From Dehalococcoidales bacterium (GTDB taxonomy: Bacteria; Chloroflexota; Dehalococcoidia; Dehalococcoidales; UBA5760): a stretch of 17,902 bases of DNA. The notes beneath the pieces were generated by a model. It had not been told where the DNA came from. It saw nothing but the letters and a program-made list of their open reading frames with translations, and searched no databases. Below are positions 5,108 to 17,836 of the stretch, one piece after another; position 1 is the first letter of the stretch; each line of letters starts with the position of its first letter. Position numbers and translations under genes: made by a program. The stretch covers positions 1 to 17,902 of the forward strand of contig JAGYOC010000074.1 of the NCBI GenBank assembly GCA_018399795.1. Direction: 5' to 3'.

Positions 5108-5611
5108 ATGAATAATGGCAGCCTTGTCAAGTCAGGCATTGCTCTAGGTGCGATTGCCGTTGTGCTGATCTTATTTGCTCCAACCATTACAAAAAGCAAT
5201 ATCAATATCAATCCCGAGCCTAAACCGGAGCAACCCCAGCAGGAGACGCTGAACTTCCGGCTCTCGACTGACACGGCACCGGGGAATACCGATGAATACG
5301 ACTCCCACAGCGTACCTATCTACCTCGAGCGGGAGCAGGAAATCGCACTATCCTTTTATGCCGAAGGTGCCCCGGTAATGCTCCGGGTGATAACACCGGC
5401 AGACGAAACAATGGGCTATCTGACCAGCACCGGCGGTGCCGGCGATATCGAGGATAAGGGGATGGGGTACCTGCAAAAGGGAAAGTGCTTTGCAGCTGCC
5501 GAAGGGCATTTTCAGTACATCGCCCCGGAAGAAGGCTACTATACCATCGACATTAAATCCACCACACCCAAGGGTGACATCGACGTGGTGATAGAATACC
5601 AGATCGCCTAG
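5108..5611 (+). CDS. Membrane-anchored extracytoplasmic protein of unknown function
   Basis: I do not recognise this 167-residue protein. Residues 8-26 form one hydrophobic segment after a short N-terminus with a Lys, fitting a signal anchor or uncleaved signal peptide. There is no lipobox Cys. A Pro/Glu/Gln-rich linker (35-46) follows, then an acidic, beta-rich region (47-167) with alternating hydrophobic residues and a single Cys (C127). The closing part (EGYYTIDIKS, IDVVIEYQIA) looks like a beta-sandwich edge. The layout suggests a small domain displayed outside the membrane. An AGAAGAGG ribosome-binding site precedes the ATG. The gene sits 53 nt after guaA and 16 nt before purD, so it is probably cotranscribed with purine genes, though nothing in it suggests a role in purine metabolism. 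Confidence 0.8.
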   Translation: MNNGSLVKSGIALGAIAVVLILFAPTITKSNININPEPKPEQPQQETLNFRLSTDTAPGNTDEYDSHSVPIYLEREQEIALSFYAEGAPVMLRVITPADETMGYLTSTGGAGDIEDKGMGYLQKGKCFAAAEGHFQYIAPEEGYYTIDIKSTTPKGDIDVVIEYQIA

Positions 5612-11658: not shown

Positions 11659-13542
11659 TCAATCCCTGTAATCAACGGCTACGGTCCGAAGAGTTTTTTT
11701 CGATTCCAGATCACTGATACCCAACTCCTCAATTTTTTCCCTGCTAGGAATCCCCTTGTTCCATCCCTTGGTTTCCCAGTATTCATTCAGGATATCCTGC
11801 CACGGCGGTACCTGACCAGCAGCGCCACCCTCTTTATGTGGCTTCGTAAGGCGCTCCGGCATTACGTTCTCCTGTTCCGGTACCATTCCCATTTCCAGAT
11901 TGAACATCTGCTGCATACACACGATGCGTTCACCTATCTTCTGGGCTTCTGCCGGGGTTACATCCCATCCCGTTATTGCATTCAGCATGTTAACTTCGTC
12001 ACTCAACGTAACTCCGGAGACAAAATAGAAAAAACACCAGGTAATGCTGTTCCAGAATTGCTGAATATCCTGATAGATCGCTCCGGCATAACCCTTCTTG
12101 TTCACATCAAACCTGTCAGTTCCTTCGGTAATGCCTATCTCAGGAAGCATAACACCCAGGTCAAACAGCTCAGCAAACCCATGCAGGTGACAGCCTCCTC
12201 TTGTCGAGGCAATGGTGGTTATGGTCTGGCCGAAGAATGCCCTGGGATCGTGTGCCCCTATAGTCTGACCTAGTGATTCGATAGCATAGAGTCTTGACCC
12301 CGGAATACGATCAACACAGGCCCTCAGCCCTTCCGCCATGAGATTACCGATACCTTCTCTTTTGGCTATCTTCTCTGTCATCTTTACTAGAGCATCTCCA
12401 CTCCCCCATTCGAGTGCTATGCCGTCAGTATCTTCCTTGGTTATTAAGCCGTTTTCGTAGCACTCAAAAGCCCAGCCCAACACACCACCTAGATCAATGG
12501 TATCTAACGTATATCTACCACAAAGCTCATTAGCCCTTACTATTGCAGCCAAATCATCCACCAGAAGGTTCGCACCGAGCATCCCCAACGTCTCATACTC
12601 CGGGCCACCCGTCTCCGCAGGCTGATATTTCGGGTTTGTAATCCTTCTGTGACACCCCATTATACACGCGGGACAGGGCCACCTCTTGATCTGTAGCTCC
12701 TCCGTATAGTACGGAGTACCTATCTTGGCAGCACCTTCAGGCCATCTATCAAGACTAAAATTCTTCATCGGCAAAAGCCCGTTTTCCTCCCTGGGCACGG
12801 TCGCCGAGGCCTGACCGTGTTGAGAGTTATCCAAAGTGAATGGCGCATCCTTGGCCCTGGCCAGAATTTCTTTATATATCTCCCTGAGTTTATCGGCATC
12901 ACTGACCGGGGGCTTAAGGGTTCCCCTGGTGACCAAAGCCTTCAGGTTCTTGGAACCCATAACAGCACCCATACCACCCCGCCCGAAATAACCATGATTA
13001 TCGTTGGCTATGCAGGCAAATCGGACCAGGTTCTCACCAGCTGGCCCAATAGATGTAACCGCCGCCTTGGGATTGCCAACCGCCTCCTTCAAAGCCGCAG
13101 TCGTTTCAACTGCATCCATCCCCCAGAATTCACCAGCATCTCTAATCTCTGCCTCTCCATCGTTGATCCACAGATAGACTGGATTACTTGCCCTTCCGGT
13201 AATAACCACGGCATCAAATCCAGCCCGTTTCAGTTCGGGTCCAATATGACCTCCGGCATTACCTTCTCCCCAGAAGCCGGTAAGTGGTGACTTGGCAGCA
13301 ACGGAACACCTTCCCGCACTGGCGATATTCGCTGCCTGATATGGCCCAGTAGCGAAGACCAGCACATTACCGGGACCTAAAGGATTGGTATTACCGGTAA
13401 CCGTCTCGGAGATTATCCTGGTAGCCATACCAACACCACCCAGATACTTCCTGGCAAATGAATCGTCAAACGTACCCTCAGTTATCTTTCCGAGAGAGAG
13501 ATCCACCCACAAAATCTTGCCCCAGTACCCACCTTTCAACAT
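11659..13542 (-). CDS. Tungsten-type aldehyde:ferredoxin oxidoreductase family protein
   Basis: The 627-residue protein matches the AOR family, in which a tungsten (rarely molybdenum) bis-pyranopterin and a 4Fe-4S cluster couple aldehyde oxidation to ferredoxin reduction, or acid reduction in reverse, in the cytoplasm of anaerobes. The N-terminal domain opens with GGYWGKILWVDLS and has AGRCSVAAKSPLTGFWGEGN (76-95). The cluster ligands are CPACIMGC (C290, C293, C297) with the distant fourth Cys probably C503 in NSITWCFF. TGGPEYETLG (311-320) is the conserved pterin and catalytic-region segment. The substrate cannot be read from sequence. AGGAGG lies 7 nt before the ATG. The gene sits between hisD and hisC with its own candidate promoter and flanking terminators. 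No ferredoxin or tungsten-cofactor gene is adjacent. Confidence 0.95.
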   Translation of the reverse strand: MLKGGYWGKILWVDLSLGKITEGTFDDSFARKYLGGVGMATRIISETVTGNTNPLGPGNVLVFATGPYQAANIASAGRCSVAAKSPLTGFWGEGNAGGHIGPELKRAGFDAVVITGRASNPVYLWINDGEAEIRDAGEFWGMDAVETTAALKEAVGNPKAAVTSIGPAGENLVRFACIANDNHGYFGRGGMGAVMGSKNLKALVTRGTLKPPVSDADKLREIYKEILARAKDAPFTLDNSQHGQASATVPREENGLLPMKNFSLDRWPEGAAKIGTPYYTEELQIKRWPCPACIMGCHRRITNPKYQPAETGGPEYETLGMLGANLLVDDLAAIVRANELCGRYTLDTIDLGGVLGWAFECYENGLITKEDTDGIALEWGSGDALVKMTEKIAKREGIGNLMAEGLRACVDRIPGSRLYAIESLGQTIGAHDPRAFFGQTITTIASTRGGCHLHGFAELFDLGVMLPEIGITEGTDRFDVNKKGYAGAIYQDIQQFWNSITWCFFYFVSGVTLSDEVNMLNAITGWDVTPAEAQKIGERIVCMQQMFNLEMGMVPEQENVMPERLTKPHKEGGAAGQVPPWQDILNEYWETKGWNKGIPSREKIEELGISDLESKKTLRTVAVDYRD

Positions 13543-13811: not shown

Positions 13812-15146
13812 TCAAAAGGAACCGGACTGATTTCCCAGCCGCTTTTCCATAGCCCGGGCATGAGCCTCAAGCCCCTCGGCCCGAGCGATAACGGATGCAG
13901 CCGGACCGATTCTTTTTACCTCTTCGTCATCAAGATTGACCAGATTAATAAATTTGATAAAGTCGGTCACATTTAGTGGTGAGCTGAACCGCGCCGTTCC
14001 TCCCGTGGGCAATACATGGCTTGGTCCGGCAACATAGTCACCAAGCACCACCGTGGATCTGTTGCCCAAAAAAATACAGCCGGCGTTATCAACCTTCTTC
14101 ACATATTCGGATGCTTTATCGCCCGCCAGGATAAGGTGCTCCGGGGCATAAAGGTTGGCCATTTCAATCGCCTCACCAATATCACCGACTATCACCACCT
14201 TTCCGCAATTTGCTAGAGATTCGGCGGCGATATCCTTTCGTGACAGTGAAGCAAGCTGCTTTTCAACTTCGCGCTCAATATTATCAGCCATCTCCTCAGA
14301 TGTGGTTATCAGTATTGCGGATGCCCGTGTATCATGCTCCGCCTGAGCAAGGAGGTCAGCAGCGCAGTAAACTGGGTCAGCACCAATATCAGCGATTATT
14401 ATTACTTCACTGGGACCCTGCAATCCGTCGATGTCGACCACACCAAAGACCATCTTTTTGGCCAGAACGACAAAAATGTTGCCTGGGCCGCAGATTTTAT
14501 CTACCTTGGGGATAGATTCTGTACCAAAGGCCATAGCTGCAATCGCCTGGGCACCCCCAATGCTGAATATACGGTCCACACCGGCGAGATCGGCAGCGAC
14601 CAGCGTAGCAGGCGGAACACCACCGCCCTTTTTCGGTGCCGTGGCCAGTATGGTTTCCTTAACGCCAGCCACACGGGCCGGTATAGCAGTCATCAGCACG
14701 GTTGACGGGTATGCCGCGGTACCGCCGGGTGCATAGAGACCAACCCGCTGCAGCGTTCTGACTACCTGCCCCAGACCCTGATGCTCAAATCCTTTACCCA
14801 CGCCGCCTAGCTGAACCTCGTGAAAGGCGCTTATACGCCGGGCAGCCAGCTTGAGAGCAGATAGCAGATTTCCATCAATACTTTTATAGGCAGCAGCTAT
14901 CTGTTTCCTGTCCACTTCCAGGCATTGAAGATCAATACCATCAATCTTCGAGGTTAATCTGTAGAGAGCCTCATCCCCATCTCTACGAACCTCTTCCATT
15001 ATATGCCTTACCGCATGCTCTGGATCACCGGTTCCGAACATATCCTTAAGCTTGCTGGCAAGCACCGGCGAAACCCGGCTATAATCATCCGGAACACGGC
15101 GCGATAATAACTCTCTTGCCCGGTCGATTCCGCTGATCCTTTCCAA
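13812..15146 (-). CDS. hisD: Histidinol dehydrogenase
   Basis: HisD is the zinc- and NAD-dependent enzyme of the last two steps of histidine synthesis, oxidising histidinol to histidine. The 444-residue protein has the usual length. Motifs are [13 protein letters not shown] (136-148), the signature [15 protein letters not shown]...[11 protein letters not shown] (217-247), zinc ligands Q268 and H271 in AQAEHD, D370 in GDYVAGPSH and H429 in LEAHARAM. The catalytic APEHL is at 334-338. The start is a TTG at 15146, one base after the hisG stop, supported by GGAGG (complement of 15156-15160) at 9 nt. It ends the hisZGD unit; the downstream gap carries the AOR promoter. Confidence 0.96.
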
Positions 15147-15147
15147 T

Positions 15148-16575
15148 TCAGATATCCTCCACAGCCAGCTTCATAGCTTCGATAATCGCTTCCATATTTT
15201 CCCTTTTTCCCTGACCTGCGGTAGCCCTCGAATTCCCTATCAGACAGGCCGTTGACTCGAAGAAGGTATCAATTATCTTGAGATTGTTTTTGGCCAGCGT
15301 ACGACCTGTCTGGGTATTTTCGATCAATAAGTCGGCATCCTCAGGCAGAAATGCCTCGGTAGCACCCCAGGTGGGAATAATCCGGTAATTGCCCAGGTGG
15401 TTATCCCGGGCATATTTATCGGCAATATTGGTATATTCCGAAGCTATTCTTAAATCCCTGGACTCTTCTAGGGCAAGCTTGCGCAAGCCATCGATATCCG
15501 ATACCGGCATATCATTAACGACAACCGCCACTATCCTGACCCAGCCATAACCAAGACCCACGATTTCCTGTACCGGACTTGAAGGAAACTGATACAGGTG
15601 CTCCCGTACCCAATCCCTTCCGGTAATAGCAAGGTCGAAATTGCCGTTGGCCACCTGAAGCGGCATATCCTGTGGCCGGATAACCTTGACCTCAACTCCA
15701 TCGATATATATATACGGCCTTCGATTGCCGGTTGGAGAGGGGTAGTCATCAATCCGGATACCGGCTCTATGCAAAATATCAAGAGTGGGTTTTTGCTGAT
15801 GCCCATCCGGCAGAGCAAGCCTTATCGTTTCTTTGGCACGCTCGTCCGGGTGAACCCCGTTTGATGGTGTCAAAGCCCCTTTATCATACAAAACGGTCTT
15901 ATATCCATCAACGGACCCGGAACAACCCCTGTCAGAAAGGGATACCAGCAAATCGCTCATATCCTTTTTCTCCAGGCTATATTTATTGGCGACAACAAAA
16001 GCACTGTAGGATAAGACCCTGTACATTGGCTCAAGACACTGACCATAAAAATCGCCCTCTCTCTCCCCCGGTACCAGGGCCAGATCAGCGGTCTCCGGAG
16101 GATAGGCCACAGCAGCACCCCACAGCGGATAAACGTTGAATCGCCTTATACGCAGGTCAAGCGCCAGAGCTTCGGCCAGATTGGGATACTCGCTGGCAAT
16201 ACGCAGGGTGTGCATCTTCGATACTGCCTCATCTACAGAAGACAACCCGCTCGAGCTACCGGCTACAAGGTACAAAGTCCCGCTTCCATAACCCAGGTTA
16301 ATCACCCTGACCAGAGCACTACTGGGATACCTGGTGAGAAGCTCCTCAACCCAGTCCAGTCCACATATACCGAGATCATAATTGCCAATGGCAACCTGTA
16401 CCGGTATGTCCTTCTCATTAAACACCTTGGCAAAAAGGCAGGGGAACTTATCAGAATCAAAACGATAGAGCCGGGTATCTTTATGGTAGCCATTCAAACC
16501 CCAGCCAGCAGACTGAAGTAGCTGAGCCGTTTCGTCAAGAAGACGACCTTTAGGAAGGGCTATCTTTATCGGCAT
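15148..16575 (-). CDS. hisG: ATP phosphoribosyltransferase with two tandem HisG catalytic domains
   Basis: HisG condenses ATP with PRPP in the first, feedback-controlled step of histidine synthesis. Short-form HisG is about 210 residues; this one is 475 because two catalytic domains are fused. Domain 1 (about 1-215) begins IKIALPKGRLLDET; domain 2 (about 250-475) begins IRLALPDGHQQKP. The internal homology is plain: VQVAIGNYDLGICGLDWV with LQVANGNFDLAITGRDWV, LRIASEYPN with LRIASEYTN, and YPLWGAAVA with IPTWGATEA. Domain 1 keeps KGR (9-11) but lacks the PRPP-loop TGxTL. Domain 2 keeps TGRTL (423-427) but has DGH (257-259) in place of KGR. Neither has the long-form C-terminal regulatory domain, fitting a partner HisZ. 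The start is ATG 16575, or an in-frame GTG at 16584; both overlap hisZ. Confidence 0.93.
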   Translation of the reverse strand: MPIKIALPKGRLLDETAQLLQSAGWGLNGYHKDTRLYRFDSDKFPCLFAKVFNEKDIPVQVAIGNYDLGICGLDWVEELLTRYPSSALVRVINLGYGSGTLYLVAGSSSGLSSVDEAVSKMHTLRIASEYPNLAEALALDLRIRRFNVYPLWGAAVAYPPETADLALVPGEREGDFYGQCLEPMYRVLSYSAFVVANKYSLEKKDMSDLLVSLSDRGCSGSVDGYKTVLYDKGALTPSNGVHPDERAKETIRLALPDGHQQKPTLDILHRAGIRIDDYPSPTGNRRPYIYIDGVEVKVIRPQDMPLQVANGNFDLAITGRDWVREHLYQFPSSPVQEIVGLGYGWVRIVAVVVNDMPVSDIDGLRKLALEESRDLRIASEYTNIADKYARDNHLGNYRIIPTWGATEAFLPEDADLLIENTQTGRTLAKNNLKIIDTFFESTACLIGNSRATAGQGKRENMEAIIEAMKLAVEDI

Positions 16576-17809
16576 TGACCTCACCCAGTAACTCTATGAC
16601 CTCACCAGCACTCTCAATCTCGTAATCCCTTTTCTCAACCCTGTCCCGTAAAATATATAATGGGGAACTGCTCCGAACTTCAAGCAACCACCTGATATGG
16701 GTCAAATCCTGATTTTCAAGCATCAATTCCGCAGTATATCCTCCGCTACGCAGGCGATCACTGATATCGAACCCAGCCGATATTGAATCCAGCCCGGTTT
16801 TAACCAGAATCCGTTTTTGCATGGCTTCATTCCAACCGGGATTTTCTACCATTTCCATCAGGCAGTCAAAGTAGAGGGCAAAGCCCGAAGCCGGAGTATC
16901 GCCACCACCCATCATGGGAATAAGATCATCATATCTCCCGCCACCACCCACCTTGACATTACCTTTATATAGCTGGAAAACCATGCCAGTATAGTATTCA
17001 AAACCCCTTCCCGAGGTGAGATCAATTGTGTACTCTCTGCCCAGGGCATCGAGAAGTTCAACAGTAGCCATGAAATCATCTACAAGGGGTAGCAATGAAG
17101 GTGCCGCATCGCTGAACAGCGCCCTCAAATTTCTTAGAAATCCGGGCGCCTTGCCCTCCAGACCAAGTACCGATAAGATGGTACGGTTTATTTCGGAACC
17201 GCCTGAATCTATTCTGCTCAGGGCTTCTTTATCCCCATCCAGAAACCGGTCGAATACCTCCACCCGTTCCTTTTCGCTCAATCCCAGAGCAGAAAGCATA
17301 CCTTTCAAAAGGCCAGCATGGGATAGTTTGAGTTCCACATTATTAATCCCCATCCCCCCCAGGGCATCCAGCGACATAGCGATCAACTCTACATCGGCAA
17401 GATTGGAGCCAGCACCTACCAGCTCCACACCACCCTGCCACCTCTCCCTTGATTCCTGCCCCGTTTCCTCGAACCTGAAGATATTGCTGGTATAAAAGAG
17501 CCTGGCTGGCTTCCTGTCTCCCATGCTATCGATATACATTCTGGCCACAGGGATAGTGCCATCGGGTCTCAACACCAGCCTCTGTCCGCTCCACCCATCC
17601 CAGTCCAGGAAGGAATAGACCCTGCCCAGCATGTCAGGCGTTAATGTACCCACCGAAGTAAAAAGATGCAGATACTCAAGAACCGGTGTCTTTACTTCCT
17701 CGTAGCCCCATTTCAAACAACACTTCCGGAAGGCTTTCTCAACAAAACGAAAATAAAGCATCCGCTCCGGAGTTAAATCACGGCTACCCTTGCACCTCTG
17801 TACCCTCAT
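16550..17809 (-). CDS. hisZ: ATP phosphoribosyltransferase regulatory subunit
   Basis: HisZ is a paralogue of histidyl-tRNA synthetase that lacks aminoacylation and forms the regulatory part of the HisZ-HisG complex, giving histidine feedback. From ATG 17809 the protein has 419 residues. It shows class II synthetase-like motifs: a CKGSRDLTPE opening, LRPDGTIPVARMY (80-92), GRGFEYYTGMVFQL (267-280) and GGGGRYDDL (288-296). The YYTG form, in place of the YYTR/YYNR of true HisRS, and the overlap with hisG favour HisZ. A C-terminal segment (about 330-410) resembles a divergent anticodon-binding domain. AAGGGGAG lies just before ATG 17809; a TTG at 17824 is in frame but overlaps that site. The 3' end overlaps hisG by about 26 nt, which implies translational coupling. 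Confidence 0.9.
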   Translation of the reverse strand: MRVQRCKGSRDLTPERMLYFRFVEKAFRKCCLKWGYEEVKTPVLEYLHLFTSVGTLTPDMLGRVYSFLDWDGWSGQRLVLRPDGTIPVARMYIDSMGDRKPARLFYTSNIFRFEETGQESRERWQGGVELVGAGSNLADVELIAMSLDALGGMGINNVELKLSHAGLLKGMLSALGLSEKERVEVFDRFLDGDKEALSRIDSGGSEINRTILSVLGLEGKAPGFLRNLRALFSDAAPSLLPLVDDFMATVELLDALGREYTIDLTSGRGFEYYTGMVFQLYKGNVKVGGGGRYDDLIPMMGGGDTPASGFALYFDCLMEMVENPGWNEAMQKRILVKTGLDSISAGFDISDRLRSGGYTAELMLENQDLTHIRWLLEVRSSSPLYILRDRVEKRDYEIESAGEVIELLGEVNADKDSPS

Positions 17810-17836
17810 AGCTCCCCTTACCAAGACAATATGTAG

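Follow-up and report, generated by a model that had tools for sequence, protein, structure and literature searches.

A tandem HisG with one PRPP-loop site in Dehalococcoidia: a candidate intramolecular pseudo-dimer

Introduction

What can an ATP phosphoribosyltransferase do with two catalytic domains in one chain when only one of them retains a PRPP loop? This allosteric enzyme is well studied, and two architectures are described for it: a long form (HisGL) of about 292 aa and a short form (HisGS) of about 214 aa that works with HisZ (PMC8305728). In a contig of a Dehalococcoidales bacterium (JAGYOC010000074.1; the 17,902-nt stretch analyzed here is referred to as the window), one minus-strand frame appeared to hold two HisG domains. 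A sequence-only reading of this frame had proposed that the halves decayed in a complementary way, the N half keeping PKGRL and the C half the PRPP loop TGRTL, and that they make up a covalent pseudo-dimer with one full active site composed from, or regulated by, both. A natural HisG pair with one PRPP site would allow the purpose of the second HisG subunit in the dimer to be tested directly, including whether the arginine that crosses the dimer is all that the partner needs to contribute, and would let the activation of a single site by HisZ be studied.

We found no description of such an architecture in the literature searched, an open-access library. In the accessible parts of a survey of his gene fusions that tabulates two Dehalococcoidetes genomes, hisG is not presented as a case (PMC1963479); in those of a survey of his gene elongation, it is mentioned once, again not as a case (Del Duca 2020; PMC7284861).

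Materials and Methods

Motifs were counted in 230 fusions, obtained by filtering 296 fusions to <90% identity, and alignment columns were numbered as in P. arcticus HisGS. The HisG tree comprised 46 N halves, 44 C halves, and 34 single-domain HisGs (two of them identical), hand-picked from the same class and phylum; it was midpoint-rooted, and no HisG of other phyla was included. Coevolution was analyzed by mean-field DCA on the 296 fusions (Neff = 118) and was left out of the evidence. Occurrence was surveyed in a sample of 400 genomes of the phylum and a sample of 197 Dehalococcoidia genomes. A 325-aa HisG-like frame in one genome (G224, L116) was excluded from the fusion counts; the C-half model matches it in two pieces separated by ~25 additional residues, which suggests one HisG domain carrying an insertion.

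Results

Two HisG domains in one frame

The frame contains 475 codons and no internal stop (Table 1); a GTG three codons 5' of the ATG would yield a 478-aa form. Two profiles each matched it in two stretches (PF01634, the Pfam HisG family: E = 2e-53 overall, 181 against a cut-off of 25.5; TIGR00070, hisG: 223.5 bits, cut-off 75.75), the outcome that the sequence-only reading expected of a profile search, and an alignment of one half to the other spans 174 columns with 36% identity (E = 2e-32). The claim of a single uninterrupted frame with two HisG domains is thereby borne out, and the motifs noted in it, PKGRL and VPGEREGDFYG in the N half and TGRTL and DGH (within PDGHQQ) in the C half, are present as read. 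A Pfam scan at E up to 1 returned no family besides HisG, and the chain stops after the second catalytic domain. When predicted models were submitted to a fold search, the HisG fold was found in both halves of the window protein; for a sister-clade fusion, the C half was nearly the sole part listed and the N half was barely covered.

Table 1. Features of the tandem hisG locus, in positions of the window, and residues of the encoded protein
Feature	Position	Strand	Remarks
Tandem HisG (putative ATP phosphoribosyltransferase, two catalytic-domain copies, 475 aa)	15148..16575	-	Profiles and self-alignment; ATG at 16575, stop codon 15148-15150
hisZ-like gene (HisS paralogue)	16550..17824	-	26-base overlap with hisG start
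hisD	13812..15146	-	Directly downstream, starting one base past the tandem hisG stop
N-terminal HisG copy, residues 3-220	15916..16569	-	Without PRPP loop; Arg at R73 position lost (N53)
N-half PKGRL, residues 8-12	16540..16554	-	Typical of the window's clade only
Arg35	16471..16473	-	Aligned with P. arcticus HisGS Arg56, dimer-crossing; Arg in 220/230 fusions
Eroded N-half PRPP-loop stretch VPGEREGDFYG, residues 168-178	16042..16074	-	
Inter-half linker, residues 221-249	15829..15915	-	Residues 221-244 with pLDDT <50 in window model
C-terminal HisG copy, residues 250-473	15157..15828	-	Sole half with PRPP loop
C-half PDGHQQ, residues 256-261, replacing PKGR	15793..15810	-	DGH in 230/230
C-half Arg285-Arg286	15718..15723	-	Arg286 in 229/230, Arg285 in 194/230
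C-half Arg300	15676..15678	-	Aligned with HisGS Arg73 (ATP gamma-phosphate contact); 230/230
C-half PRPP loop TGRTL, residues 423-427	15295..15309	-	TGx[TS] in 230/230

Occurrence among genomes

In the phylum sample, 36 of the 400 genomes had a full-length fusion match (E < 1e-117), and the best match below these was a single domain (E = 5.7e-38). The survey of related genomes, which had been suggested together with the original reading, returned the whole fusion in one frame in 109 of the 197 Dehalococcoidia genomes, any HisG being found in 178. Fusion-type matches occurred in 116 genomes; both halves were intact in 111 (109 fused, two in separate frames), and the remaining five (G349, G421, G434, G453, and G461) held fusion pieces cut by contig ends. 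In this sample, a lone half was found only at contig ends. No HisG-type match besides the fusion was present in 115 of these 116 genomes; the exception (G404, one of the 109) had an ordinary HisG in addition. In all 16 fusion genomes checked, both HisG matches came from the fusion, with no others.

At least 120 relatives of the window protein (453-507 aa) were among the matches listed, and a search seeded by a distant member added at least 120 further fusion proteins among the matches listed (462-535 aa). Named database entries among these matches are labelled ATP phosphoribosyltransferase. A genome scan, by a method that reaches close relatives only, returned 22 fusion loci, all from Dehalococcoidia, Dehalococcoidales, Chloroflexi, or Chloroflexota; organism-named proteins among the matches listed were likewise from Chloroflexota, in a search of the same reach. 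The carriers include genomes rich in reductive dehalogenases: 11 of 12 fusion genomes (1.4-2.1 Mb) had 20-53 reductive dehalogenase matches, some over the cut-off, the twelfth (G005) had six, none over the cut-off, and 14 control genomes had none over the cut-off. The carriers presumably include cultured organohalide respirers of the Dehalococcoides type.

Genomic neighborhood

The gene order is hisZ, tandem hisG, hisD, an aldehyde:ferredoxin oxidoreductase-like gene, and then hisC and hisB. The window's hisZ-like protein scored 213.6 bits against hisZ and 212.9 against hisS, under the curated cut-offs of both. Because a genuine, separate HisS above the cut-off was found elsewhere in the genome in 13 of 13 related genomes, we take the window gene to be HisZ; on these scores, the present profile models cover its branch of HisZ poorly. 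A HisZ gene lies immediately 5' of the fusion in all 18 loci with upstream DNA among the 22 (two of them partial, at a contig edge), so that the tandem HisG, like HisGS, has an encoded HisZ partner. From the operon context and the lone HisG-type match in 115 of 116 genomes, we infer that the tandem HisG has ATP phosphoribosyltransferase activity.

The gene between hisD and hisC (11659-13542, minus strand, 627 aa) matched aldehyde ferredoxin oxidoreductase at E = 1.6e-55, but its 189 bits fall well short of the curated cut-off (868). Elsewhere in the window, a plus-strand frame of 167 aa between guaA and purD (5108-5611), with a hydrophobic stretch at its N-terminus, had no NCBIfam match at E 1e-5.

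Motif asymmetry between the halves

The PRPP motif TGx[TS] is present in the C half of all 230 fusions and in the N half of none, so the whole protein has a PRPP loop by virtue of its C half. At the KGR position, the C half reads DGH in every fusion; His thus replaces Arg, and the C half lacks the Arg32 of HisGS. The halves also differ in Arg at the R73 position (C: 230/230; N: 103/230), in Glu at the E163 position (C: 230/230; N: 180/230), and at the D176 position, which is acidic in the C half of 230/230 and hydrophobic in the N half of 227/230. Within the C half, Glu407 and Glu/Asp419 are each found in 230/230. Of 4000 random pairs, 3821 showed higher conservation in the C half than in the N half, with mean identities of 0.572 and 0.501, respectively; the C half has 53 columns conserved at ≥95%, against 30 in the N half.

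In the N half, K9 and R11 occur together in 109 of 230 fusions (K9 is missing in 107 and R11 in 117, gaps included). The motif follows clade: in the window's clade (127 fusions), the N half mostly reads PKGRL (by the listed motif strings, at least 106 of the 127 have PKGR), and in the sister clade B (103) it mostly reads PTGDL, while the C half retains PDGH and the PRPP loop, and therefore KGR is found in neither half. N halves of clade B have Arg at the Arg73 position in nearly all cases. The N site, dead by its motifs, would accordingly seem to have decayed via two routes, clade by clade, and complementary decay of KGR and PRPP loop fails as a general principle. Among single-domain Chloroflexota HisGs, the KGR Arg was present in 9 of 34 hand-picked proteins, a count in which the column alignment may be inexact for long forms.

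In the N half, the columns corresponding to the PRPP loop vary and frequently hold acidic residues. Conserved in this half are D56 (230/230), R142 (228), E54 (227), Tyr30 (227), an arginine loop with R35 (220) and R38 (209), and YPP at 158-160 (≥97%). Such conservation indicates that the N half is under constraint and not drifting freely.

The register of the C-half pair Arg285/Arg286 relative to HisGS Arg56 is ambiguous by 1-3 residues: Arg56 falls on Gly283 by MAFFT and on Arg285 by hhalign of C halves against single domains, and hhalign of N against C pairs Arg38 with Arg286. Given these conflicting registers, we make no case for a loss of Arg56 from the C half.

Origin and split versions

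N halves, C halves, and single-domain HisGs each fell on one side of a supported branch (100/100, 99/97, and 100/99, respectively), and the N-half and C-half trees recovered the same two main clades. Because the three groups separate and both trees match, a single duplication before the radiation of the carriers is indicated. A hisG of the short-form type would have been duplicated in tandem once, and the copies merged into one frame. The stem of the N halves is longer than that of the C halves (1.0 vs. 0.39 changes per column).

Two genomes, G344 (L114, 2328-3693) and G355 (L115, 3694-5450), encode the halves in separate overlapping frames, in the same order and with hisZ adjoining and hisD downstream. 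The G355 frames meet at TGATG, upstream of which lies GGGGA; the G344 frames overlap around GTGCAGGATAG, and the linker is nearly absent. The hisZ match of G355 runs across one stop, so this contig may hold sequence errors. In the N tree, the two split genes lie near the base of the two clades; in the C tree, G344 is nested. We considered an independent double fusion from an unfused ancestor, against which speak the nesting of G344 in the C tree and an inter-half span equal in both clades (median 71 residues, Leu181 to Ala254). One fusion followed by two later fissions is, on the sequences, the simpler account. G344 and G355 may possibly encode a naturally split, heterodimeric HisG; if their split frames are real, the covalent link between the partner halves is dispensable.

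Predicted structures and coevolution

AlphaFold returned a pTM of 0.78 for the window fusion (58 alignment rows) and of 0.91 for a sister-clade fusion (mean pLDDT 95.1, 96 alignment rows). Two domains would hardly reach such values without a predicted relative placement, which points to mutual packing of the N and C halves; the pTM of 0.91, an overall score, suggests that this packing is specific and lies within one chain.

In the DCA, the block pairing the arginine loop of the N half with the PRPP loop of the C half, chosen once the top pairs were known, ranked among inter-half blocks at 0.957 by its mean and at 0.999 by its top five pairs. The top 50 pairs showed no enrichment in inter-half ones (20, against 25.6 expected), intra-half scores of the N and C halves were uncorrelated (r = 0.016), the controls, two strand pairs assumed to be neighbors, failed to score high within clades, and the two fusion clades disagreed.

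Discussion

The computed tandem architecture, clade, motif asymmetry, HisZ adjacency, and overall model confidence, which implies packing, lead us to regard it as fairly probable that the tandem HisG is an intramolecular pseudo-dimer in which the C half holds the single catalytic site and the N half is its obligatory partner. A real, ancient, and asymmetric tandem is present, and the covalent pseudo-dimer of the sequence-only reading stands as the simplest account of it; an active site composed from the KGR of one half and the TGxT of the other is unlikely.

The C half, judged from its motifs the only plausible PRPP site, would bind PRPP and ATP with its complete PRPP loop, Arg300, and Glu407, and perform the chemistry. 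Its invariant Asp-Gly-His would occupy the place of the KGR arginine, which is thought to help pyrophosphate leave. In P. arcticus HisGS, Arg32 (of KGR) and Arg56 matter for catalysis, Arg56 crossing between the subunits of the dimer and reaching the pyrophosphate in the opposite active site (PMC9734150), and Arg73 contacts the ATP gamma-phosphate (PMC10795190). Loss of Arg32 is reported to cost 25-fold without HisZ, and with HisZ to lower kcat from 1.72 to 0.48 per second (PMC9734150); because HisZ-bound HisGS stays active without Arg32, an enzyme always paired with HisZ could tolerate its loss.

The N half, its PRPP loop gone, would be unable to bind PRPP in the usual way and would pack on the C half as a built-in dimer partner, a role suggested by the model confidence, the kept loop aligned with Arg56, and the finding of lone halves only at contig ends in the class sample. 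By analogy with P. arcticus HisGS, it probably supplies a trans-acting arginine loop, Arg35/Arg38 being offered to the C-half active site. HisZ would still bind and regulate the fusion. If the complex is patterned on the HisG4-HisZ4 octamer, it would consist of two tandem chains and four HisZ, with two active sites; the expectation that the fusion changes the stoichiometry with HisZ agrees with the HisZ gene kept beside it.

The catalytic unit might instead be a canonical C:C' homodimer of two chains, with the N half serving as a HisZ docking or regulatory domain, a reading that we consider rather unlikely. HisZ is retained beside the fusion, as this reading would have it, and the C-half R286 is Arg in 229 of 230 fusions, as though serving a live site. 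A pure pseudo-dimer, in which this residue and Arg285 (194/230) would face the dead N site, does not account for the near-invariance of the pair; a C:C' dimer would. Against a C:C' unit, the N half keeps R35 (220/230), R38 (209/230), D56 (230/230), and E54 (227/230) despite its lost PRPP loop, the R35 column aligns with the dimer-crossing Arg56, and the pTM of 0.91 suggests that N packs on C within the chain. Since Arg286 fits C:C' at least equally well and coevolution is undecided, our confidence in the pseudo-dimer is held at the modest level given above. The N cleft could also have been kept as an effector site for a nucleotide or other phosphate ligand, comparable to eukaryotic phosphofructokinase (PMC12203962), and the conservation specific to the N half (R142 228/230, E54 227/230, YPP at 158-160 ≥97%) would suit such regulation; its variable and often acidic PRPP-loop columns are contrary to a phosphate site, and we give this reading only a small chance.

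One full active site formed jointly by the N-half KGR and the C-half TGxTL is highly improbable. Within the window's clade, the motifs fit such a site (at least 106/127 have PKGR, and C-half TGx[TS] is present in 230/230 fusions), but 107 of the 230 fusions lack K9 and 117 lack R11, clade B (103) mostly reads PTGDL, and the KGR Arg is found in just 9 of 34 single-domain Chloroflexota HisGs; it is because KGR is clade-limited and its Arg is not universal in single domains that we set the composite site aside. More probably, the N half contributes structurally and through the dimer-crossing arginine loop. An assembly duplication, the outcome under which the original reading was to be given up, is ruled out by the 36% identity of the halves and by recurrence in 109 of 197 genomes, and with at least 240 fusion proteins among the matches listed there is next to no chance that the frame is an artefact of this or any accidental kind.

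Beyond the pseudo-dimer itself, we tentatively raise the possibility of a third HisG architecture: an obligate, hemi-active pseudo-dimer with a DGH site, an arginine provided in trans by the dead N paralogue, half the usual number of active sites in the complex with HisZ, and split heterodimers. Within it, the His of DGH might perhaps stabilize the leaving group or act as the general base that is still sought.

Among known systems, HisGS-HisZ (P. arcticus, A. baumannii, and L. lactis) is like the fusion in the HisG fold, the adjoining HisZ gene, the PRPP loop, and the Arg73 position. HisGS forms a head-to-tail dimer with an arginine across the interface (PMC9734150, PMC10795190); it has a single catalytic domain of about 214 aa and two equal active sites per dimer, whereas the fusion (475 aa, two domains) has two unequal copies per chain, one PRPP-loop site, and DGH for KGR. 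HisGL shares the catalytic domain family, but has a regulatory domain at its C-terminus and is reported to work independently of HisZ (PMC8305728), whereas no regulatory domain was matched in the fusion and HisZ is present. The elongations of HisA/HisF, HisB, and HisD are likewise in-tandem duplications and fusions of a histidine gene; unlike the tandem HisG, they are proposed to be ancient elongations of modules (PMC7284861). Tandem fusion with one regulatory half is already known as an evolutionary pattern, for example in eukaryotic 6-phosphofructokinase, a duplicated and fused bacterial-like enzyme with a catalytic and a regulatory half (PMC12203962). That enzyme belongs to an unrelated family, and its catalytic half is the N-terminal one, whereas in the tandem HisG it would be the C-terminal one.
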